Virus record (IMG/VR): IMGVR_UViG_3300021139_000198
Coordinates: 1 to 20,354 of that record
Strand: one strand, 5' to 3'
DNA from: a virus
Length of the DNA stretch: 20,354 nt
Shown: positions 3,912 through 20,240 of the stretch, piece after piece
Numbering within the stretch: the first letter of the stretch is position 1
How the letters are laid out: each line of letters starts with the position of its first letter
Program-made: the position numbers and the translations under genes
The notes under the pieces: generated by a model
What the model was told of the DNA's origin: nothing
Database searches by the model: none
What the model saw: the letters and a program-made list of their open reading frames with translations, nothing else

Positions 3912-5576
3912 TCACTTCATTGCATTGGTTGTAATAGTGACATTACCACCAGTTGCATCTTGAACCAAAATTCTTTGAATATCACTTGCGGTAAAGTTGC
4001 TTCTTGAGTTTTCTTGTTTTGTCATAGCTGACATTAAGTTAGAAAGAACCGCAGGATTTTCTAAGTTTAAGTGCTGACCAGGCGCAAATCCAGTTCTAGC
4101 CAAAACACTTTTAATATAGGCTTGAGTATTATTTTCGGAAGATGGCGCATATTTGCTGACGATACCTTCAACGGTATCTAACTTATCACGCCGTTCGTAG
4201 CGTAATAATTGTCTAGCCATTGCCCTTAATCCTTCTTCATTTGAAGAAAATTTTTGAAATTGTGTTGCACTTCCAGGAACTCTTAAATTACCAGGATTCA
4301 TAAACCTTTCAGCTATTGAACCGCCAGTAGGCGAAGTTTTTGCCATTTCCTGTTTAAATCTAGCCATTTCAGGGCTATCTTTTTGACCGCTTGCATAAAG
4401 ACCATGTTCGTACAAGAATTGAGCAAATCTTGTTGACATGGAATAATTCATTGTTTCAGGAGTTAATTTTCCCTTTGCTTTTAATTCTGCATTTCTTTGT
4501 TCAGGCGTTTTAAGCAAATCCTGAATGAAATTGACGGCGTTCATCACCGTAATTCCAAAACTTTTTATGGAATTGTAAAATTCTGCAACATCTTGCTTAA
4601 ATTCAGGCGATGTTAGATATTCGCCAAATTTACCAATATTTTCACCCAAGTTTTCAATCCATTTTTTTACATCTGGACTATCAAGCAAACTTGTTATGAA
4701 TTTTGTTATTCCTTCAGATACCTTTTCAAAAGCAGGTGCAAGGGCAACCAGTTTGTCAATTAGTTTAGTTTCAAGGTCATTACCAGATCGTTTGAGCTGA
4801 ACCCAAAAATTTTGCCATTTACGACTTGTTTCATCATCAACTGATAATGTATCCCTGTCTTGCTTTAATCTTTTAAAAGTCTCTTGTAATTCTTTTTGAC
4901 TAAGAGAAGATAAGCGGCGTAATTCCTCAAGACTAAAAACTTGAGTAAGACCCATTGCTTCGGCATATTGTTTTGTTCTTCCGCCTTGGTTGAACATCCG
5001 AATCGCATTGGTGATTATTGATGGTAATGCTTGCTCGGCATTTTGATTTGCACCAAGCCCTAAACGGCTCAAAATCGGTCTTCTTGATAAGTCTGACTGA
5101 ATGTCTGCTATGTTGCTTAAAACCTGTCCTGGGTTGATATAACGTCCCAAATTGACGTTTGCGGCTCTTAGTCCACCAGTAGAAACACCCAACCCTTGTG
5201 CTTGTCTGCGGTAATCACTTGCGCTTGCGCCTAATGCGCCCAATCCAAAGCCACCGCCAATTGAACCTAGCGTAACCCACCTGGCAAGCGAAACAACGCT
5301 ATTAGCCAAGTTTTGGGCAATATTACTTGTGGATTTCTCGGTTTCTTTTAAATCTTTGTTTGCATCTTTGACTTTTTTGTCAAATTCTTGCAAATTCTTT
5401 AAAGATTTTTCCAGGTGTTTATTTAGCGTTTGTGCGCCACCTGCTGATGCCTGATTGACTTTTTGCCAATCACCAGGCATTTTTTTAAGTGCGGCTTGAT
5501 ATTTCTCAAATGCTTGTTGAAACTTCTTAAAAGATTCGTCTAAAACGTCAATCTGAATAACACTTTTGGTTGCCAT
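3912..5576 (-). CDS. Tape measure protein with lysozyme-like C-terminus
   Basis: 554 aa. Residues 12-95 are a charged, coiled-coil-like helix (KKFQQAFEKYQAALKKM, LKNLQEFDKKVKDANKDLKE). A hydrophobic Gly-rich segment follows at about 92-118, then a long helical region to about 415. Together these are usual for a tape measure, which sets tail length and reaches the host membrane. The C-terminal part (about 424-525) differs: MNPGNLR, FQKFSSNEEGLRAMARQLLRY, IVSKYAPSSENNTQAYIKSV and a final helix. This NPGNxR ... YAPxxEN/T pattern is shared with virion peptidoglycan-associated modules annotated as lytic enzymes or P5-like structural domains, suggesting local cell-wall digestion during injection. 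A GAGAG box lies just before the ATG. At this length the tail would be fairly short for a myovirus. Confidence 0.82.
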   Translation of the reverse strand: MATKSVIQIDVLDESFKKFQQAFEKYQAALKKMPGDWQKVNQASAGGAQTLNKHLEKSLKNLQEFDKKVKDANKDLKETEKSTSNIAQNLANSVVSLARWVTLGSIGGGFGLGALGASASDYRRQAQGLGVSTGGLRAANVNLGRYINPGQVLSNIADIQSDLSRRPILSRLGLGANQNAEQALPSIITNAIRMFNQGGRTKQYAEAMGLTQVFSLEELRRLSSLSQKELQETFKRLKQDRDTLSVDDETSRKWQNFWVQLKRSGNDLETKLIDKLVALAPAFEKVSEGITKFITSLLDSPDVKKWIENLGENIGKFGEYLTSPEFKQDVAEFYNSIKSFGITVMNAVNFIQDLLKTPEQRNAELKAKGKLTPETMNYSMSTRFAQFLYEHGLYASGQKDSPEMARFKQEMAKTSPTGGSIAERFMNPGNLRVPGSATQFQKFSSNEEGLRAMARQLLRYERRDKLDTVEGIVSKYAPSSENNTQAYIKSVLARTGFAPGQHLNLENPAVLSNLMSAMTKQENSRSNFTASDIQRILVQDATGGNVTITTNAMK

Positions 5577-5587
5577 TTTTCTCTCTT

Positions 5588-5740
5588 TTAAAAAAGTGAT
5601 CTATTACTGATTGCTTTTATTAAATGACGATTCCTGTATTCATTAGCATCCGTCCATTTGCCGCCGCTTTCCTTGATGAATTCACCAAACCAAGCATTAC
5701 TTAACTTTTCTAAGCAATGATGGATGATTCCTTCGCCTTC
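5588..5740 (-). CDS. Chaperone frameshift extension (T-like), -1 frame
   Basis: An open -1 frame overlaps the chaperone gene and ends 11 nt before the tape measure ATG. It has no ATG and no convincing ribosome site, so it is more likely reached by programmed frameshifting than by its own start. If the slip occurs at the T_GGA_AAG heptamer at 5740-5746 (in the zero frame, one base different from lambda GGGAAAG), the extension is 50 aa (starting EGEGIIHHCLEKLSNAWFGE) and the fusion about 235 aa. The -1 frame is also open back to a perfect U_UUU_UUU heptamer at 5890-5896, so the slip point is uncertain. Coding of the extension is supported by lack of stops and protein-like composition. Confidence 0.55.
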   Translation of the reverse strand, partial: EGEGIIHHCLEKLSNAWFGEFIKESGGKWTDANEYRNRHLIKAISNRSLF

Positions 5741-6294
5741 TTTCCAGTAGTCTCTGGCTTTGTCTGTATCGGCAAGCCATTCTGAAACGCCGTACAGTCC
5801 AAGGACGAAATTTCCCAATTTCGTAACGCTCCTGCCATCTCCAAGAAAGAATTTTTCAAATCCTTCGGAGCAACCTTGGAGATTGCAGTAAAAAAAACCA
5901 AAGATGAAAGAGTTTCGGCTTCTTCATCTTCGTCTAAGATTTCTCTTTTTACCGCTACGTCAAAAGGAATGGTTTCCCAACCTTTTTCTGTACTCATGAT
6001 GACGTTGGTTAATCTGACTATTTCATTAATCAAACCAAACTTAACGCCACCATTTCCATCCCAATTACCCGCCTTTAAAGCCAAAGACTTCAAAGCAGGA
6101 TAAGCAAGTTGGGGGGCAGATAAAGCTAAGTGCGCCTGGTTAATTGAATCAAAGCATTGACTAAATACTTTGCCCAATTCAAGGTAAAACTGCTCAAATA
6201 CAGATCGACTAATTGAAGCGGAATGAATATAAACCAATCCGTTTCGACCAGTCTGAACTTGCATCACTAGGTTCAGATTCCTGTCGATTTTCAC
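5710..6294 (-). CDS. Tail assembly chaperone, zero-frame product
   Basis: 194 aa, located between tube and tape measure, the standard place of the G/T tail assembly chaperone that coats the tape measure before tube polymerisation. The start is GTG, with AAGGA 6 nt upstream. The protein is mainly helical, with a core LAYPALKSLALKAGNWDGNG near residues 64-83, an acidic patch DEDEEAE near 117-123, and a C-terminal tail rich in Lys, Thr and Ser. An open -1 frame overlaps the last part and continues 122 nt past this stop, as in G/GT pairs. Role is by position and by the overlapping frame; no motif is diagnostic. Confidence 0.72.
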   Translation of the reverse strand: MKIDRNLNLVMQVQTGRNGLVYIHSASISRSVFEQFYLELGKVFSQCFDSINQAHLALSAPQLAYPALKSLALKAGNWDGNGGVKFGLINEIVRLTNVIMSTEKGWETIPFDVAVKREILDEDEEAETLSSLVFFTAISKVAPKDLKNSFLEMAGALRNWEISSLDCTAFQNGLPIQTKPETTGKKAKESSIIA

Positions 6295-12908: not shown

Positions 12909-13751
12909 TTAGCGTTGGTTGTTAGGTGTATGGAAAGTAGTTGCTCTTTGTGGAGGAACTTTGAAATCACTAAGCCATGCTTCCATTGAACCACGATACT
13001 TAGTGATTGTACGACCGCTTGAATCTCTTGATTGAATAGCAATCAATTGATCTCCAGGAACATGACTAGATGTTCTTGCGGCAGTCATTGCATCATTCAT
13101 AATTTGCTTTTCAGCTAATTCGAGTAATTTTGCATCTTTTATAGTTGCAAGGTTAATATCCTTGTAGCTATCAGAATACGCTTGCAATCCTCTGAGAAGA
13201 CGTTTCCTGTAAGCCATCAATGATTCGCCTTGGAGTGGGCGGGAAGCTGACTTACCAAAAGCGGCTAAAACTGAATCGCATTTTGCTTGTGCATCTGCAT
13301 ATTCTGCGGCGGCTTCGTCCATCTTCATAGCTTCTTCATCCTTCTTGGCATCATCGTCATCAGGCTTCATTTCACCTGAGGGCATTTTTTCTTCGCCCAT
13401 GTCAGAGCCTTCGGCATCTTTCTTGGCTTTTTTCATGTCATCTTCATCATCATCTTTGCGCATTTTTTTGGATTCCATGTGCTTTTCTTCCATATCTTCA
13501 TCTTTACGCTTTTTGGAATCCATTTTGCGTTCCATGAAGTGTTTGGCTTCTGATTCTGATTCCTCATCATCATCGTCCATCTTCGCATCTTCGTCTTTGC
13601 GCTTTTTATCAGCGGCAGTAACGAGTGGAGGGGCGGGAAGATTTTTTTCCATCTCATCAATTCTCACACTCATGGAGCTGAGAGCCGAAAGAATGGCATC
13701 TAGTTTATCGCCTTGAGCATCTGCTTTCGGCTCTACTTTGTTGTCTGTCAT
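12909..13751 (-). CDS. Nested scaffold protein from internal start (candidate)
   Basis: Inside the 811-aa gene, in the same frame, an ATG at codon 532 is preceded by AAGAGG with an 8-nt spacer, better than the site of the full-length gene. It would give a 280-aa product containing only the charged repeat region and the helical C-terminus, beginning MTDNKVEPKADAQGDKLDAI. The boundary falls just after the end of the protease domain. Lambda C/Nu3 uses the same arrangement: a protease fused to the scaffold, plus an abundant scaffold-only product from an internal start. That parallel is established knowledge; use of this start here is inferred. Confidence 0.55.
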   Translation of the reverse strand: MTDNKVEPKADAQGDKLDAILSALSSMSVRIDEMEKNLPAPPLVTAADKKRKDEDAKMDDDDEESESEAKHFMERKMDSKKRKDEDMEEKHMESKKMRKDDDEDDMKKAKKDAEGSDMGEEKMPSGEMKPDDDDAKKDEEAMKMDEAAAEYADAQAKCDSVLAAFGKSASRPLQGESLMAYRKRLLRGLQAYSDSYKDINLATIKDAKLLELAEKQIMNDAMTAARTSSHVPGDQLIAIQSRDSSGRTITKYRGSMEAWLSDFKVPPQRATTFHTPNNQR

Positions 13752-15344
13752 TTCAGATACCTCTTGGTTAGTTAATAATACTCCTGCGGGTTCGCCACCC
13801 TTGTCCCATACTCCTTTAGAACCCCTTGCTTCAGTTACGATAGCAATATGATCTAAAAGAAATGGTACACCTTCGATCAAGAGTGGCTCTCCATTCTCAG
13901 TCGTTAGTGTCGTGTTACCTGCTGTTTGGTCAAAAACAACAGATGGGCTAGTGCTAACTTCTTCGGTCAAAATGGTGTCTACCGCATCTTGGTCGTAGAT
14001 TTTCGCAATACCCCAAACTTCATCTCCCTTGATATAAGGCAGAATAATACTTCCAACTGCTCTGTCCTTGAATTCCTTGGAAGTCAGAACCGCAGTTTCA
14101 GGGTGATCCATTATCACAATCAACCCATTACAACGCTTTAAAAAGTCATCATTCAAATATAAACTGGAATCACGCCAAACGTGCTCTCCAATACTTGAAC
14201 GATAAGCTAACCCTGTTCCTGTAATGCGAATAGCTAATAGCATAACATTAGCATACATTTGAGGGCTTGGCAATAAATCTTGCCTAATTAATTCAGCATA
14301 ATCAAATTCTGTTTTTGCACTTGCAATTTTGAAACAAATATCTTGTCCTGGATGCAAAGGCATTGGGGGATTGTCAACATGACACCAATCATAACCAGTT
14401 GATTCATGATTCAAAGTTACTGGCATTTGCTGAACATTTCGAGCAATGTAAGTACAAAATTGACCATCATCAAATAATACTTCTAACTTGCCATCGTATT
14501 TAATGCCTGTTTCTTCAAAGCACTCACGCCTAGCCGCTTCTTCTAAGTTTGCATCTTCTTTATTTTGATGACCGCCTGGTACTGCCCAAGTTTGTGGGTA
14601 ATCTCCACCATCGCCCCTGCGAATCAATAATACTTTGCCGTCATTGGTCAAAAACATTATTCCTGCGGCACGACCTAATGCCCCTGCATCTTTGTCAATT
14701 GGCATAGCATCGGATTTTGAACCAGTTGCAATTCTTTCAACGGCTAAATCATCAGCTTTTAAATTTGTAATACTTTGAGTAATTTCTGCTAATTTGGCTG
14801 ACAAGCCTTTTAATTCTGATTGAACTTTGGAACTATCCCAATCAGCATCGCATTTCCATTTTTTTAGTGCTAAATTAATCCTGGAATTTGGGTCGTGTTT
14901 TGTTTTGTCAGAAGTTAGCTTTTCTTTCATGCCTGACATTCGGGCACAAAATGATTCTTTTCTTGACCCGCCTTCAGGTTGGGGGGCTTTTAAATGCGCC
15001 CCATGCTCTTTGTTGTAAGAAGCCCTGCCTTTGGCATTTAAGCCGCCGTTTTTATTCTTACCTTCCTTGGTCTCCCAAGCCTCAGAATCATCCTCTGGAA
15101 CGCAATTGGGCACTTCTTTGCCGCCTTTTTGCTTCATTCCTAATTGTTTGTAACCTTCCCAACAAGGGTCAGCATCATCTTCTTTAAATTCGGGAGTTGA
15201 TAACGGCGTAGATTCTTCAGGAATATCGCCGTCTTCTGAGTGTTTAATAAATTTCTTTGCCACTTCTTTAGGGATGCCAATATTGCCATGACCGCTTGCG
15301 GCGGCATACATAGCTTTTCGTTGGGCTTCCGATTCAAATGGCAT
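12909..15344 (-). CDS. Head protein fusion: Nudix + DUF2213 protease + scaffold
   Basis: 811 aa, far longer than a usual prohead protease. Domains in order: residues 1-40 a short motif common in phage head proteins (FESEAQRKAMYAAASGHG); 55-85 Cys-containing DPCWEGYKQLGMKQKGG; 100-165 GLNAKGRASYNKEHGAHLK and DPNSRINLALKKWKC, a DUF6321-like segment; 225-345 a Nudix hydrolase with box GGHQNKEDANLEEAARRECF then EETG at 257-280, one residue longer than canonical; 370-520 DUF2213-type protease, with candidate His in MDHPE (414), Ser in STSPS (464-468) and Asp-His in LLDHIAIV; 532-811 a scaffold-like tail with strongly charged Lys/Asp/Glu/Met repeats (575-680) and a helical end. No Shine-Dalgarno; the start lies 3 nt past the preceding stop, implying coupling. 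The protease would mature the procapsid; the Nudix role is unknown. Confidence 0.8.
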   Translation of the reverse strand: MPFESEAQRKAMYAAASGHGNIGIPKEVAKKFIKHSEDGDIPEESTPLSTPEFKEDDADPCWEGYKQLGMKQKGGKEVPNCVPEDDSEAWETKEGKNKNGGLNAKGRASYNKEHGAHLKAPQPEGGSRKESFCARMSGMKEKLTSDKTKHDPNSRINLALKKWKCDADWDSSKVQSELKGLSAKLAEITQSITNLKADDLAVERIATGSKSDAMPIDKDAGALGRAAGIMFLTNDGKVLLIRRGDGGDYPQTWAVPGGHQNKEDANLEEAARRECFEETGIKYDGKLEVLFDDGQFCTYIARNVQQMPVTLNHESTGYDWCHVDNPPMPLHPGQDICFKIASAKTEFDYAELIRQDLLPSPQMYANVMLLAIRITGTGLAYRSSIGEHVWRDSSLYLNDDFLKRCNGLIVIMDHPETAVLTSKEFKDRAVGSIILPYIKGDEVWGIAKIYDQDAVDTILTEEVSTSPSVVFDQTAGNTTLTTENGEPLLIEGVPFLLDHIAIVTEARGSKGVWDKGGEPAGVLLTNQEVSEMTDNKVEPKADAQGDKLDAILSALSSMSVRIDEMEKNLPAPPLVTAADKKRKDEDAKMDDDDEESESEAKHFMERKMDSKKRKDEDMEEKHMESKKMRKDDDEDDMKKAKKDAEGSDMGEEKMPSGEMKPDDDDAKKDEEAMKMDEAAAEYADAQAKCDSVLAAFGKSASRPLQGESLMAYRKRLLRGLQAYSDSYKDINLATIKDAKLLELAEKQIMNDAMTAARTSSHVPGDQLIAIQSRDSSGRTITKYRGSMEAWLSDFKVPPQRATTFHTPNNQR
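13759..13765 (-). promoter_or_regulatory. Internal ribosome binding site for the nested scaffold
   Basis: AAGAGGT on the minus strand, 8 nt before the in-frame ATG at 13751. It lies inside the coding region of the protease fusion, so its good fit is not explained by the junction spacing. It decides the proposed scaffold start. Confidence 0.5.
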
Positions 15345-15347
15345 AAA

Positions 15348-16151
15348 TTATTTAAAAGTAATTTTGGCAGATTGTAATGCCTTTTCGCCCTTTGTTGTCA
15401 ACAAATCTTTTACTGAACTTAAATTGTAGATGTATTGATAATTGCACCTGCAAAATACTTCTTCGCCTGGTTGCGTTATTTCATCGGTATAACCATTGGG
15501 ATGCTTTAAATAACCTTTTTCATCCGCCCATGAGTTGCGAATAATATATATCTTATCGTCACGTTCTTTATGATCTTTTCTGTAATCATAGTTCACTTGC
15601 CGCCAATGACTATGCCATTTTGCCGCAATTGCGCCGTTATCAACCGCAACAATATCATTAATATTTGAAACCAATTTATGGGTTTGATCTATTACAACCC
15701 TGCGTTGTTCAAAAGTAATAGCACTCAAGGATTTTCTAATATCCTTTTTAGTTTTGTTCCTATCCGTTACTTTGCTACCGCCTGGGGGTATGGATGTTGC
15801 CCATCCTTGAAACCTGCGCAGGGTGTTGCTAATGGCTTCCTGGCGGTTTAATTTAATAAGGTTAGCCGCAGTTGAAATTCTGCGGTCTAGTTCGTTTCTT
15901 AATTTTGGTTTGAGCCGTTCAACATCGTATTTGGTGACGTTTTTTCTGACCAATCCGCCCTTTACGACCAATCTGGTATATGCGGCGGTCATTGCTTTAA
16001 TCATTTCCTGCTCGACCTGCGATTCAGGGATTAAACTGTTGTAGGCGGCAATTTTGATTGTTTCCATCCAATCCTGAAGTCTTTTTTCAGAATCGAATCC
16101 ATATTCCATTATGTCGTTAATTGCTTCGGTCAGAACTTCATAAAACGTCAT
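15348..16151 (-). CDS. Minor head protein, Mu gpF-like
   Basis: 267 aa. AAGG precedes the ATG, and the gene overlaps the end of the upstream HTH gene by 14 nt. The N-terminal two thirds are helical and basic. The C-terminal part has the pattern of the Mu gpF/SPP1 gp7 minor head family: QRRVVIDQTHKLVSNINDIV, AAKWHSHWRQVNYDYRKDHK with the W-x-S/T...H-x-D/E-R-D core, then YTDEITQPGEEVFCRCNYQY, where the C-R-C motif ends the domain. Such proteins sit at the portal and often affect DNA ejection or head assembly. Its place between portal/kinase and protease genes is usual for the family. The final residues (LTTKGEKALQSAKITFK) are a basic tail. Confidence 0.85.
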   Translation of the reverse strand: MTFYEVLTEAINDIMEYGFDSEKRLQDWMETIKIAAYNSLIPESQVEQEMIKAMTAAYTRLVVKGGLVRKNVTKYDVERLKPKLRNELDRRISTAANLIKLNRQEAISNTLRRFQGWATSIPPGGSKVTDRNKTKKDIRKSLSAITFEQRRVVIDQTHKLVSNINDIVAVDNGAIAAKWHSHWRQVNYDYRKDHKERDDKIYIIRNSWADEKGYLKHPNGYTDEITQPGEEVFCRCNYQYIYNLSSVKDLLTTKGEKALQSAKITFK

Positions 16152-16359
16152 TACTTAGCCTTTTTCGTTTTTCAAGAAATAATTCCCACATCGCAGGATG
16201 TATTCGACTTTTGCCGTTTTCGTAATTGCTCCAACGAACTTGGGTAGTATAAATTAAAGAAGCGCATTTGGCTTGGGATAAATTACCCCTGGCAAGTATT
16301 ATTTCGCTAGGATTTGGAACGTATCCAAATGCGCCCCTGTTTCGTGTTTTTGTTTCCAT
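16138..16359 (-). CDS. Small Cro/C1-type HTH regulator
   Basis: 73 aa. The core NLSQAKCASLIYTTQVRWSN followed by YENGKSRIHPAMWELFLEKR has the layout of Cro/C1-type HTH proteins: L-S-Q-A at helix 2, a recognition helix ending R-W-S-N-Y-E-N-G, and a short last helix. Close relatives with HPAxWELF are common in Burkholderiales phages and genomes, which is a weak host hint. The ATG lies 3 nt after the T-run of a strong terminator, and the only purine-rich ribosome site is in the 3' arm of that hairpin. It overlaps the Mu gpF-like gene, so it sits at the head of the head operon. It could regulate this operon or the repeats in the adjacent island. Confidence 0.72.
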   Translation of the reverse strand: METKTRNRGAFGYVPNPSEIILARGNLSQAKCASLIYTTQVRWSNYENGKSRIHPAMWELFLEKRKRLSNDVL

Positions 16360-16362
16360 AAT

Positions 16363-16384
16363 AAAAAGCCCCCACTTGGGGGGC
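16363..16384 (-). terminator. Strong rho-independent terminator
   Basis: On the minus strand GCCCCC pairs with GGGGGC (16368-16384) around a CAAGT loop, followed by five T's (16363-16367). It closes the island transcript about 17 nt after the LPD29-like gene stop. The HTH gene begins 3 nt later, so read-through is needed for that gene or another start site exists. Confidence 0.85.
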
Positions 16385-16401: not shown

Positions 16402-16899
16402 TTAAGCTACAAAAACTTGCTCAATACCTTTCGCAAAATTCCAGTAACCATCCCTCATATATTTGCCATCGAACAACCTGAAAATAATGGTGTTGCCGTA
16501 TTCATTCATTTGTGGGTTATAAAACTTGCTTGCCAGGGCTTGATCTTCTGGCGCATCTTCCATCCCTGCGTAATAGTTTCTGGCAAAGTTCCAAATTTCT
16601 TGACCAAGTTCAGGGCTAAGTTTGTTGTTAACAAAAACGTATTTGACTTGGGGCAGGTCATCTCTACTATTTGTATATTCGTAAAGGTCTTGCATACCGT
16701 CAAAACTACCGTATTGAAATTGATTAGCAAAGGTTTTTAATTTGTCTAATACTTCTGGCTCTAGGTCAGTAACGTAAACATTAACGCTACTGCCCATGCT
16801 ATAAATTTCACTTTTTACGCTACCTGCAATGTTGTTTGCTTTTAGATAATTTCTAATCATCGTAGCGGCTTGGGCGGGGATACTTGGTGTTCTTTTCAT
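16402..16899 (-). CDS. LPD29-like protein of unknown function
   Basis: 165 aa with AAAGGA 6 nt before ATG. The N-terminal part, AATMIRNYLKANNIAGSVKS then IYSMGSSVNVYVTDLEPEVL and FQYGSFDGMQDLYEYTNSRD, follows the LPD29 pattern (Ile-Arg-x-x-Leu-Lys, Y-S-M-G-S-S-x-x-V, G-x-F-D-G-M-x-D-L-Y) known from large polyvalent proteins and free-standing small proteins of phages and plasmids. The second half (VKYVFVNNKLSPELGQEIWN, then FRLFDGKYMRDGYWNFAKGI) is less familiar. It is the only gene of the unit headed by the third promoter-like repeat and is closed by a strong terminator, so it is an independent transcription unit. Molecular function is not known. Confidence 0.7.
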   Translation of the reverse strand: MKRTPSIPAQAATMIRNYLKANNIAGSVKSEIYSMGSSVNVYVTDLEPEVLDKLKTFANQFQYGSFDGMQDLYEYTNSRDDLPQVKYVFVNNKLSPELGQEIWNFARNYYAGMEDAPEDQALASKFYNPQMNEYGNTIIFRLFDGKYMRDGYWNFAKGIEQVFVA

Positions 16900-16940: not shown

Positions 16941-16998
16941 TTTATTTTATACCAAATTAGCATTGTTTATTCTAGTTTGGTATATTTACAACAAATTA
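16941..16998 (-). promoter_or_regulatory. Repeat A: promoter with inverted-repeat operator
   Basis: Minus-strand -10-like TATAAA (16946-16951), about 40 nt before the LPD29-like ATG. Perfect 8-bp arms ATACCAAA (16949-16956) and TTTGGTAT (16976-16983) with a 19-nt spacer flank and overlap the -10. Farther upstream lies TTTGTTGTAA. No TTGACA-like box is present. Shared with repeats B and C. Confidence 0.62.
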
Positions 16999-17001
16999 TT
17001 T

Positions 17002-17160
17002 TTAGTTTGCTAACCACTCCTCATAAGTTAAAAGCGGTTCACCATTTCTGCCGATGTCACCACCGTTACCGTCATCAGCACAAGCCAGGTAAATTTGATA
17101 TTCCTGGTCGTTTGTGCCCCTTGCTCTGGTTTGCCAAAATTGATTTTGTTGGAGTTCCAT
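17002..17160 (-). CDS. Small acidic protein, 52 aa, unknown
   Basis: 52 aa starting at ATG 17160, preceded by AAAAAGGAAATCAA, the uniform ribosome site of this island. The gene fills the space before repeat A. The sequence is Gln/Asn-rich at first (MELQQNQFWQTRARGTNDQE), then YLACADDGNGGD and a conserved-looking GEPLLTYEEWLAN end. The G-x-P-L-x-T/S-Y/F-x-E-W-L ending occurs in several small phage proteins. No function can be given. The stop lies 4 nt before the upstream end of repeat A. Confidence 0.65.
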   Translation of the reverse strand: MELQQNQFWQTRARGTNDQEYQIYLACADDGNGGDIGRNGEPLLTYEEWLAN

Positions 17161-17172
17161 TTGATTTCCTTT

Positions 17173-17358
17173 TTAAGTTTTTTCAACCACAATTACTAAA
17201 CCATATCTGATACCGAATTCGCCAATTGGAGGGGTGTAACCGTAAGTCTCCATGAAAGTTCTTTCGCCTTCGTTCCAAGTTCTTAATGTTGTTCCGTCAG
17301 GGGCGATACCGATTACTTGGCTGTTTGTTATTGGGAAGTGTTCAAAAATTGTTTCCAT
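17173..17358 (-). CDS. Small protein, 61 aa, unknown
   Basis: ATG at 17358 with AAAGGAAATCAA just before it; a longer frame to 17373 starts at TTG inside this site and is rejected. The protein is METIFEHFPITNSQVIGIAP followed by DGTTLRTWNEGERTFMETYG and a C-terminal beta-like IRYGLVIVVEKT. Balanced charge, no Cys, no membrane segment. It is the second gene of the unit headed by repeat B. I do not recognise a family. Confidence 0.62.
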   Translation of the reverse strand: METIFEHFPITNSQVIGIAPDGTTLRTWNEGERTFMETYGYTPPIGEFGIRYGLVIVVEKT

Positions 17359-17380
17359 TTGATTTCCTTTCAATAATTAA

Positions 17381-17647
17381 TTAAATTGCCCAAATAGTTG
17401 CATAAGCACTTGTATTTGGAATTTCTTTTTTAACCAAAATACCACTTGCAATTGCGTTATAAATTGCTTTATACCCAAACCCTTTCACTACATCACCATT
17501 TAAATCATAAACACGAATTTGAAATTTTTCTTGACCGAAATAGTTTTTTTCCAATTGATATTTAACGTATCCACCATTTCTACAAATTTCAATAACTTTT
17601 TGATTTTTTGCGTTTAATTGGATATTTGGTTCATAAACTACATACAT
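17381..17647 (-). CDS. Small protein, 88 aa, unknown
   Basis: First gene after repeat B, whose predicted start gives about a 32-nt leader. AAAGGA stands 8 nt before the ATG. The sequence MYVVYEPNIQLNAKNQKVIE, then RNGGYVKYQLEKNYFGQEKF and IRVYDLNGDVVKGFGYKAIY, suggests a small alpha/beta protein with Asn-rich loops. An alternative ATG two codons downstream exists. No family is recognised. Confidence 0.6.
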   Translation of the reverse strand: MYVVYEPNIQLNAKNQKVIEICRNGGYVKYQLEKNYFGQEKFQIRVYDLNGDVVKGFGYKAIYNAIASGILVKKEIPNTSAYATIWAI

Positions 17648-17680
17648 GATTAATTTCCTTTTTTTATTACCTTCTAAGCC

Positions 17681-17739
17681 TTTATTTTATACCTAATTGG
17701 CATATAAATATACTGATTAGGCATAATTGCAACAAATTA
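17681..17739 (-). promoter_or_regulatory. Repeat B: promoter with inverted-repeat operator
   Basis: Minus-strand TATAAA at 17686-17691. Arms ATACCTAAT (17689-17697) and ATTAGGCAT (17716-17724) match at 8 of 9 positions with an 18-nt spacer. TTTGTTGCAA follows upstream and overlaps the end of the 72-aa gene. No canonical -35. The 14-nt stretch around TTTATTTTATACC is identical in repeat A. Confidence 0.62.
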
Positions 17740-17955
17740 ATTTAAAGAATATTGGTAAAGTTTTTTGCAGTAATCGAAATAATCATTATTTTTTGCGTTG
17801 TCCTTCCAGGCAACAACTACAACTCCACTTTTCCGAACTCCGTAAAACCTACCTAAACTTGATTTTTCACCCGCATAAACCCATTGACCTTTTGGCAACT
17901 TTGCCATTTCATCTTTGGTCATTTGCCAAATATTTTTTGCTTTGGTAAATTTCAT
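17737..17955 (-). CDS. Conserved small GQWVY-type protein
   Basis: 72 aa. The ATG overlaps the stop of the 52-aa gene upstream (ATGA), and AAAGGAAATAAAG precedes it. Sequence: [20 protein letters not shown], then [20 protein letters not shown] and [12 protein letters not shown]. The layout L-x-x-GQWV ... GRFxGV ... G-x-V-V-V-A-W-x-x-N-A is a recurrent small family in phages and plasmids. It looks like a small beta barrel plus helices and is basic. No function is established to my knowledge. Confidence 0.68.
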
Positions 17956-18110
17956 TCTTTATTTCCTTTCAAGTAAATTTTGCAAGCCAGTAATCTTTCG
18001 TTGTCTTCATCAGTATTTAACCAGGGAAGCATTTGCAGGGCTTTGAGCATATTTTTAATTGCCCACTTGGGTTGTCTTCCAACTATTTTTTTTGCTTGTT
18101 CGTATGTCAT
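17952..18110 (-). CDS. Conserved small helical protein (PWLNT type)
   Basis: 52 aa, ATG at 18110, preceded by AAAAGGAAATCAA; the stop overlaps the next [23 protein letters not shown] followed by [20 protein letters not shown] is the pattern NMxxALxxxPWLNTxEDxxRLxAA of small phage/mobile-element proteins that are all-helical. It is very short and basic. The function is unknown; translational coupling with the GQWVY-type gene suggests joint expression. Confidence 0.65.
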
Positions 18111-18146
18111 TTGATTTCCTTTTAAAAGCCCCCGCAGGGGCGTTGA

Positions 18147-18500
18147 TTAATCTAACCTGCTTTCGGCATAAGCATTGATTCCGTTATCTACTAGAACTTG
18201 CGCAAACGCTTCTGCGTACTGCTCTTTTTTCTGCATACTCTGGTTGTAATCAAATACCCGCATTACATAACCGCCTTCGTATCTTTTGCGACCAACACCC
18301 ATTTTTTTCAGGAAGTTTGCAAACTTAATATCCCGAATAACAACCCAGGCAAATCCGCAAACACCATCAGGAACAAAATAATTTGTTGTGCCATTGTTGA
18401 CAATCATTGGCGTAACGTCCATGCCATTGACTGCCGCACAACCTGCACGAGTAGCTTCCATGTAAATTCCAAGGTAATTGATTTTTTCTGCAACTTTCAT
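18147..18500 (-). CDS. Conserved mobile-element protein (VPDGVCGFAWV type)
   Basis: 117 aa. ATG at 18500 with AAAGGAAATCAA; a longer frame to 18515 begins at TTG inside that site and is rejected. Landmarks: AAVNGMDVTPMIV, YFVPDGVCGFAWVVIRDIKF ANFLKKMG, then YEGGYVMRVFDYNQSMQKKE and YAEAFAQVLVDNGINAYAES RLD. The D-G-V-C-G-F-A-W-V block and the end A-Y-A-x-S/G-R-L-D mark a family common on phages, plasmids and conjugative elements, with unknown function. The protein is intact and near the usual length for the family. Confidence 0.72.
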   Translation of the reverse strand: MKVAEKINYLGIYMEATRAGCAAVNGMDVTPMIVNNGTTNYFVPDGVCGFAWVVIRDIKFANFLKKMGVGRKRYEGGYVMRVFDYNQSMQKKEQYAEAFAQVLVDNGINAYAESRLD

Positions 18501-18519
18501 TTGATTTCCTTTCAAAGTG

Positions 18520-18669
18520 TTAAAAATGACCTGTGGCTTCGTATCTTCTAATCATCGTTAAAGCGGCTCTCGCACGACCGTAATGCCTTTTGATTTTTGC
18601 CGCCAGGTATATCGCCCGAACTTCCGTAATTCCATGAATCACCAAGTAACCGTATCTTGCTAGTTCCAT
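18520..18669 (-). CDS. Small basic protein, 49 aa, unknown
   Basis: The first gene after repeat C. AAAGGA lies 9 nt before the ATG and the leader is about 34 nt. MELARYGYLVIHGITEVRAI followed by YLAAKIKRHYGRARAALTMI RRYEATGHF gives a strongly basic, mostly helical protein; the R/K spacing would suit nucleic-acid contact. It ends 20 nt before the next ATG. Not recognised as a family. Confidence 0.62.
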   Translation of the reverse strand: MELARYGYLVIHGITEVRAIYLAAKIKRHYGRARAALTMIRRYEATGHF

Positions 18670-18702
18670 GATTTTTTTCCTTTAATTTCCTAACCACCAC
18701 AA

Positions 18703-18765
18703 TTGTTATTCTATACCTATTAAGCATAAACACAATAGGATAAGTATTATTTATTTGCAATTTGT
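18703..18765 (-). promoter_or_regulatory. Repeat C: promoter with inverted-repeat operator
   Basis: Minus-strand TATAGA at 18710-18715, about 40 nt before the 49-aa gene. Arms ATACCTATT (18713-18721) and AATAGGAT (18734-18741) match apart from one missing T, with a 12-nt spacer. Upstream there is TTGCAAAT. It lies between the terminator and the first gene of its unit. Shares ATGC ... GGTATA(A/G)AATAA with A and B. Confidence 0.6.
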
Positions 18766-19067: not shown

Positions 19068-20240
19068 CTACCCTAGAAGTGTTTTCAGCTTGTCCTTACC
19101 TATTTCGCCTTTAGCAAACATTTCTTTAGCTTGGCGTTCCAATTTTTGCCTGGTAACTGCGGGGTCGTATTTAAATACGCCTTCTAATGTACCCAAATGC
19201 ACATTATGCGGTTCGTCAAAATTATTGATAATTTGCATCTTAACTCTTGGGTTGTCTTTGTAGTGTTCGTGCATTTCATGAATCGTCTTAGATGCGCCCA
19301 TGTGCGCTTCAATTAAAACGTCAATAGATACTGACCTGGAACGCATTGCATTGAACTTTAAAGCCCTTTCAATAGGCGTATTGGTGTAAACAATCACCGC
19401 ATCGCCTTCGGTCATATCAAGTGCTTCATTAACTTTGCGACTGGACGATTTGAATGTTGACATAACCGAATCGTAAACCAAGTTATCGTCTTTCAATCCA
19501 AACATGGATGCCGCAAGGGGTGAAGTAGCCGATTTTCCTGAACCGCTTCCACCTGCGGTAAACATTGTTGGGGTTTTGTCGTTTTCCCTGGCTTTTTTCT
19601 CTAATGCTTGCCTGTAAATAACTTTGGACAAATGAGAACTTGGCTCATGAACTGCACCAACCATCGACATATCTTTTCTGAACGCAGGGCTTAATTTCTT
19701 AACCTGGTCAGCATCAATAGTATTGAAAAACTTTTCTTTCTTCATTGCTTGCCAATAATCAGAAATCAATTGTTGCTGATTGGTTCTGATGGCGTTGTAA
19801 AAAGTTCCTTCAACTCGCCTTTGTTTTGGGGTTAGTCCTGGTGATCTTTCAAATCCATGCTTATCAACGCCGCCTTTTTCAAATCCTCTGCCTTTTTTTT
19901 CTGCGGGTTTTTCAGTTGGCGCAGGTTCAGAACTTCTCAGCTTTTCAATTTCTTGCAAAGTTTCCTTTTGCTTAGGCGAACCTGGCATTTCTTTCAAGCC
20001 TTTGTTATACGCTTTTAACAATTCCAAACTTGGCTTTTCTGTCTTGGTAGGCTCAACTGATGCGCCCCCACCACCACCGCCAGAAGTAAATTTTCCGCTT
20101 GGGTCTCTTGGGTGTTCGTGTTCTTTAAAATCATCGTTTACAAAAACATATTCGTCTGAACGAATTACAAACTTAAAAAGCGGCATAAGCCGTTCATGAA
20201 CATTAATAATATTTCCTGTTTTAATATTTTTAAATTTCAT
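19068..20240 (-). CDS. Zeta-toxin-like P-loop kinase fused to head-type domain
   Basis: 390 aa. AAGGG precedes ATG 7 nt downstream. The N-terminus (1-60) contains FKEHEHPRDPSGKFTSGGGG, a phrase common in virion-associated proteins, followed by a Glu/Lys/Pro-rich linker (60-145). Residues about 145-215 carry IDADQVKKLSPAFRKD and AVHEPSSHLSKVIYRQALEK, which match the zeta/PezT element that normally follows the P-loop. The Walker A motif GGSGSGKS stands at 230-237, then VYDSVMST, GDAVIVYTNTPIERALKFNA and R300/R302 like the zeta arginines. So the catalytic parts appear complete but in unusual order. Zeta kinases phosphorylate UDP-GlcNAc or other substrates; the substrate here is unknown. It lies between the portal and minor head genes, so virion packaging is possible. 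Confidence 0.72.
   Translation of the reverse strand: MKFKNIKTGNIINVHERLMPLFKFVIRSDEYVFVNDDFKEHEHPRDPSGKFTSGGGGGGASVEPTKTEKPSLELLKAYNKGLKEMPGSPKQKETLQEIEKLRSSEPAPTEKPAEKKGRGFEKGGVDKHGFERSPGLTPKQRRVEGTFYNAIRTNQQQLISDYWQAMKKEKFFNTIDADQVKKLSPAFRKDMSMVGAVHEPSSHLSKVIYRQALEKKARENDKTPTMFTAGGSGSGKSATSPLAASMFGLKDDNLVYDSVMSTFKSSSRKVNEALDMTEGDAVIVYTNTPIERALKFNAMRSRSVSIDVLIEAHMGASKTIHEMHEHYKDNPRVKMQIINNFDEPHNVHLGTLEGVFKYDPAVTRQKLERQAKEMFAKGEIGKDKLKTLLG

Follow-up and report, generated by a model that had tools for sequence, protein, structure and literature searches.

Anti-CRISPR and other anti-defence genes have no sequence in common, and they are usually found by way of Aca regulators, which serve as bait. 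Aca10, whose structure is available as 7XI5, is a dimeric repressor of an anti-CRISPR operon; its 21-bp operator, AATACGCTCATTGAGCGTATT, lies within TTGCAA-N16-TATTCT ahead of acrIC7-acrIC6-aca10, and its residues Q22, Q37 and R44 contact the DNA (PMC9410881). Several Aca families, including Aca10, have one or two inverted repeats per promoter, the families tested act as repressors, and high acr transcription has been noted to interfere with later-required phage genes downstream (PMC9410906). In archaeal rudiviruses linked to Aca8, a conserved regulatory sequence precedes 11 of the 13 SIRV2 early genes; shut-off by Aca has been proposed for it, and it has been used to predict anti-defence genes (PMC11065993). 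Here we analyzed a stretch of 20,354 nucleotides from an uncultivated virus (IMG/VR record IMGVR_UViG_3300021139_000198, positions 1 to 20,354; hereafter, the window) and propose, with a probability of roughly 0.85, that an Aca10-like helix-turn-helix (HTH) protein represses several promoters of a swappable small-gene island through 17-bp operators.

The minus strand of the window encodes tailed-phage structural proteins with a contractile-tail-like gene set, and the capsid protein is ~50% identical to the capsids of Pantoea, Klebsiella, Yersinia and Rac-SA53 phages. IMG/VR contained 126 capsid relatives, of which 80 were retrieved for comparison. The small-gene island is positioned between the gene at 19068–20240 and the head gene at 15348–16151, both on the minus strand, and its transcription points into the late head genes (Table 1). 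Among close relatives, the gene directly upstream of the island slot (19068–20240 in the window; compared in L004:3757-5904 and L022, about 4700-6100) has a similar start and long C-terminal parts that are quite different, and the window copy has a P-loop kinase-like C-terminal part. An 811-aa ORF just upstream of the capsid genes (12909–15344, minus strand) carries a Nudix-like box, GGHQNKEDANLEEAARRECFEETG, read by eye.

Table 1 Operators, genes and other features of the small-gene island in the window.
Feature	Position	Strand	Remarks
Operator A-O1	16948..16964	-	AATGCTAATTTGGTATA; overlaps -10-like TAAAAT (16944-16949); without its own -35
Operator A-O2	16968..16984	-	TATACCAAACTAGAATA; centre 20 bp upstream of A-O1; -35-like TTGTAA 16986-16991
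Operator B-O1	17688..17704	-	TATGCCAATTAGGTATA; overlaps -10-like TAAAAT (17684-17689)
Operator B-O2	17709..17725	-	TATGCCTAATCAGTATA; centre 21 bp upstream of B-O1; -35-like TTGCAA 17727-17732
Operator C	18712..18728	-	TATGCTTAATAGGTATA; 16-bp spacer, -35-like TTGTGT 18730-18735, -10-like TAGAAT 18708-18713
HTH protein, 73 aa, proposed repressor	16138..16359	-	Aca10 relative; last island gene; overlaps start of 15348-16151
Terminator-like hairpin	16368..16384	-	GCCCCCCAAGTGGGGGC then TTTTTATTAT; between 165-aa gene and HTH gene
165-aa protein behind promoter A	16402..16899	-	weak LPD29 match, below Pfam cut-off
Unit behind promoter B	17002..17647	-	88-, 61- and 52-aa ORFs, no assigned function
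Unit behind promoter C	17737..18669	-	49-, 117-, 52- and 72-aa ORFs, no assigned function

A preliminary description of this DNA had reported three related minus-strand elements, A, B and C, and our search for repeat families in the window recovered them at the same places, with start codons ~34–42 nt downstream of each; the window contains GGTATARAATAA exactly three times, always within these elements. What repeats is a compact palindrome of 17 bp, TATRCY-N5-RGYATA (with TATRCYWAATWRGTATA as the consensus over 45 dereplicated sites), which we predict to be the operator of a dimer, and not the 37-, 38- or 32-nt inverted repeat previously taken as the unit. The motifs ATGC and GGTATA are the two halves of one such operator, and the arms of the supposed repeat are, in A and B, the outer half-sites of two operators, while the left arm of C is no site. 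The long inverted repeat was rejected as the binding unit, the left half of C scoring −13 bits and containing no operator. Two operators stand in tandem in A and in B, and a single one in C. The tandem centre distances are about two helical turns, a spacing that would let two dimers sit on the same side of the helix. By matrix score the five operators are the top five 17-mers of the window (17.0–25.5 bits, the sixth scoring 11.3), with 0.07 expected per Markov-simulated window at the operator-score threshold, values to be read with the caveat that the matrix training set included near-identical copies of the window sites.

In relatives, the operator occupies the 16-bp spacer between the -35 and -10 boxes (dereplicated elements), with TTGACA or TTGCAT followed after 16 bp by TATACT or TATTAT (e.g., TTGACA-16-TATTAT and TTGCAT-16-TATACT). 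Without any promoter filter, a TTG was found 7–8 nt upstream in 37 of 47 distinct sites, compared to ~7% expected. Element C matches this geometry. At A-O2 and B-O2, the -35-like boxes lie at the canonical distance but the -10s are weak, and A-O1 and B-O1 have a -10-like box with no recognisable -35; the TTTGTTG/TTGCAA part of the preliminary description is real in A and B, where it corresponds to the -35-like TTG upstream of the O2 operators. Because a generic sigma-70 scan of the window showed no excess (10 hits versus 9.9 in shuffles), the promoter claim rests on the relatives. The earlier view of A, B and C as related promoter/operators is supported, each being a putative sigma-70 promoter that heads a small transcription unit.

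In 40 of 45 promoters, a start-site box, TGTDG (mostly TGTAGT), lies at a fixed distance of 9 or 10 nt downstream of the operator; of 135 equally long control windows, 21 contain it at any position. The box sits at the predicted transcription start (e.g., L055:3874-3879, L118 and L142; about 18697–18702 on the minus strand of the window). Element C carries it as TGTGG; the versions in A and B are degenerate and positioned with respect to O1, a slight argument for a start governed by O1 in these two. No common fold of the 5′ leader was seen among these promoters, and the box could be a second, undescribed control element. Two other repeats accompany some of the promoters: an inverted repeat, TGCAACA...TGTTGCA, just upstream of the operator in 7 of the 45 (L102, L115, L123, L127 and others), its right arm containing the TTGCAT -35, and a palindrome, GTGTTG...ACAC, which precedes 7 promoters and is often situated between two that diverge. 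Both are possible candidates for second operators.

The further motif copies that the preliminary description had proposed to seek in related genomes are present, the 17-bp palindrome standing upstream of island genes in many related phages. Of the 80 capsid loci, 14 contain a relative of the HTH gene, and the total over all viral loci is 67. When the comparison was restricted to capsid relatives with 2.5 kb or more of slot sequence, promoter-embedded sites were found in 10 of 11 loci with the HTH gene and in 0 of 37 without it (Fisher test, P = 1.7e-9, which overstates the strength of the association because the loci are related). The one exception, L071, which shares a contig with L145, has a site with a 17-bp spacer. 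L004, whose capsid protein is identical, has neither HTH gene nor island, and L090–L092 carry the HTH gene beside other portal and head genes, with no island except one small divergent gene. In L090–L092 the HTH gene is immediately preceded by the best site (16.5 bits, the next 10.1), a placement that would fit autoregulation. In the longest records nearly all sites are in the island (5 of 6 in G001 and 5 of 6 in G002).

The HTH profile retrieved 7xi5_A from the PDB with E = 1.6e-14, the next PDB hit being at 0.011, and the window protein is 42% identical to Aca10 over 55 aa; the same PDB profile search detected no sequence relation to the other solved Aca structures. In the profile alignment, the contact residue Q22 of Aca10 is conserved as Q29 of the window protein, and at the aligned positions Q37 is replaced by Ser and R44 by Ser/Ala or similar, with conserved basic residues on both sides. 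Given these two replacements, a DNA specificity related but not equal to that of Aca10 is expected. When scored with our matrix, the Aca10 operator ATACGCTCATTGAGCGTAT aligned in the central register only, with 11 of 17 positions identical to a typical site, and in that register it scored above 99.3% of random palindromes (P about 0.007). The homology to Aca10 and the co-occurrence with sites agree with the earlier suggestion that the HTH protein is the likely binder. HTH relatives gave no hit in annotated phages or bacterial genome contigs. We call the protein Aca10-like, and not an Aca, because no acr gene was found beside it: no island protein matched an Acr model in the libraries used. The prediction that it works with the operators like an Aca-type repressor is well supported.

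We propose the following sequence of events. Upon infection, host RNA polymerase would read promoters A, B and C, producing strong early transcription of the island. The HTH gene, situated behind the terminator-like hairpin, would be reached by read-through from A, so that the HTH protein would build up slowly. Its dimers would then cover the -35 and -10 boxes and the spacer between them, exclude polymerase and shut off the island together with the HTH gene itself. Such a shut-off would keep strong early transcription from running on into the late head genes downstream, and the interference reported for high acr transcription (PMC9410906) would give the HTH repressor its purpose here.

The preliminary description had suggested that paired changes of the arms might reflect a structured promoter; on this reading, A, B and C would be hairpin or cruciform promoters whose arms are selected to pair, whatever their sequence. 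Complementary arms are kept in all three copies, and single-strand folding of A is better than that of its shuffles (z −3.04), but B and C are unremarkable (z −1.05 and +0.57). Across the 45 dereplicated operators, complementarity of symmetric positions does not exceed that of permuted ones, and for two symmetric position pairs it falls below that of permuted pairs; covariation of the arms across copies is not supported. Within N5, the stretch with arm variation, complementarity at four of five positions occurs in 23% of random site pairs, and three such matches (A, B and C), picked post hoc, would arise by chance in about 1%. The operator sequence itself is strongly conserved, with five invariant positions in the 45 sites (A2, T3, C5, G13 and T16, partly owing to the search pattern). 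The left half of C, moreover, is not a site. Hairpin promoters are very improbable, and the data are accounted for by a dimer that recognises specific sequence at sigma-70 promoters. Covariation of the wider flanking arms (upstream CAACA..., downstream ...TGTAGT) was also rejected, within-element scores equalling permuted ones (p 0.19–0.37), and the arms of L142, CAACAGTTC/GAACTGTTG, are a striking single case of such pairing.

The HTH protein might instead activate A and B by binding O2 and O1 and recruiting polymerase to a -10 that has no -35. The architecture of A-O1 and B-O1, each with a -10-like TAAAAT without a -35 and a second operator upstream, speaks for this reading; in relatives and in C, however, the site is inside the spacer of a near-consensus promoter, where a binder excludes polymerase, and the Aca proteins tested to date repress (PMC9410906), making activation very unlikely. 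The sites might also belong to another regulator, either a phage repressor encoded elsewhere or a host protein, with the HTH gene merely carried in the island, and co-occurrence alone cannot separate the HTH gene from another linked gene. We consider this improbable, since L090–L092 retain the HTH gene and a site when the island genes, save the small divergent one, are absent, and since the HTH protein is implicated by its homology to Aca10 and by the position and register of the Aca10 operator. Repression by the Aca10-like protein remains our preferred reading.

The 165-aa protein behind promoter A belongs to the commonest island family, found in 21 of 31 loci with the HTH gene. The LPD29 domain that it weakly resembles is named after large polyvalent proteins, a class that PMC5512222 places among the conflict proteins carried by phages and conjugative elements. 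The protein had no hit in annotated phages; bacterial genomes yielded 11 distant relatives (Nitrosomonas communis L150 among them), and no HTH relative was found in the fetched flanks of these 11. Searches of the island proteins against known Acr and defence families returned no match, as did those with the other sampled island families, an HD-domain family excepted. The HD-domain gene is of the RelA/SpoT alarmone hydrolase type (NCBIfam TIGR00691, 5e-23) and occurs at L145:3849-4385 and in seven other loci with the HTH gene; a phage-borne alarmone hydrolase is a plausible candidate for counter-defence. The unit behind C is split by a GC-rich hairpin followed by T's (18124–18143, minus strand; noticed by eye and absent from the terminator scan list) that resembles the hairpin splitting the unit behind A. 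We give an anti-defence role of the island about an even chance; it is our best guess because of the analogy with acr-aca loci and the archaeal Aca8-linked genes.

The broader reading is that these freshwater phages possess a bacteriophage Aca regulon, in which a single Aca10-like repressor governs the several separate promoters of a modular anti-defence island located between the portal and head genes, and we put it forward tentatively, at slightly less than even odds. If it is true, the operator can serve as bait, marking small unknown genes of dozens of families as candidates for anti-defence, and each gene behind an operator-bearing promoter is a testable one. In this uncultivated lake phage, a repressor related to anti-CRISPR regulators would flag the adjacent small genes as candidate counter-immunity genes. 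The analysis also defines an Aca10-like regulator branch with its operator across about 60 uncultivated phage loci. Placing several promoters under one regulator, an idea proposed for archaeal viruses, is here carried over to bacterial phages, where, as far as the papers we found show, it is a variant on a known theme.

The closest described system is the acrIC7-acrIC6-aca10 operon of Pseudomonas citronellolis (PMC9410881). Both regulators are small HTH proteins of dimeric type (~65–73 aa) whose own gene closes a series of small genes, and both systems place a palindromic operator in the 16-bp spacer of a TTG...-N16-TAT... promoter, as seen in the relatives and C and in part in A and B; the Aca10 half-site TACGCTCA is similar to TATGCTWA and in the same register. 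The two differ in regulator sequence, including the residues aligned with Q37 and R44, and in the AT-rich operator of the present phages; here there are three separate promoters in place of a single operon promoter, no known acr gene is adjacent, and a terminator-like hairpin precedes the regulator gene. Aca1, Aca2, Aca4, Aca5 and Aca9 (PMC9410906) differ in operator sequence and have no detected sequence relation to the HTH protein, but the arrangement is alike, with tandem operators in or beside the core promoter, a downstream regulator gene and, in our case by prediction, autoregulation. The rudiviral genes linked to Aca8 have archaeal BRE/TATA promoters, an unrelated wHTH regulator and a location near the genome ends, and are mostly single; what they have in common with the island is one regulatory sequence repeated before many small unknown genes.
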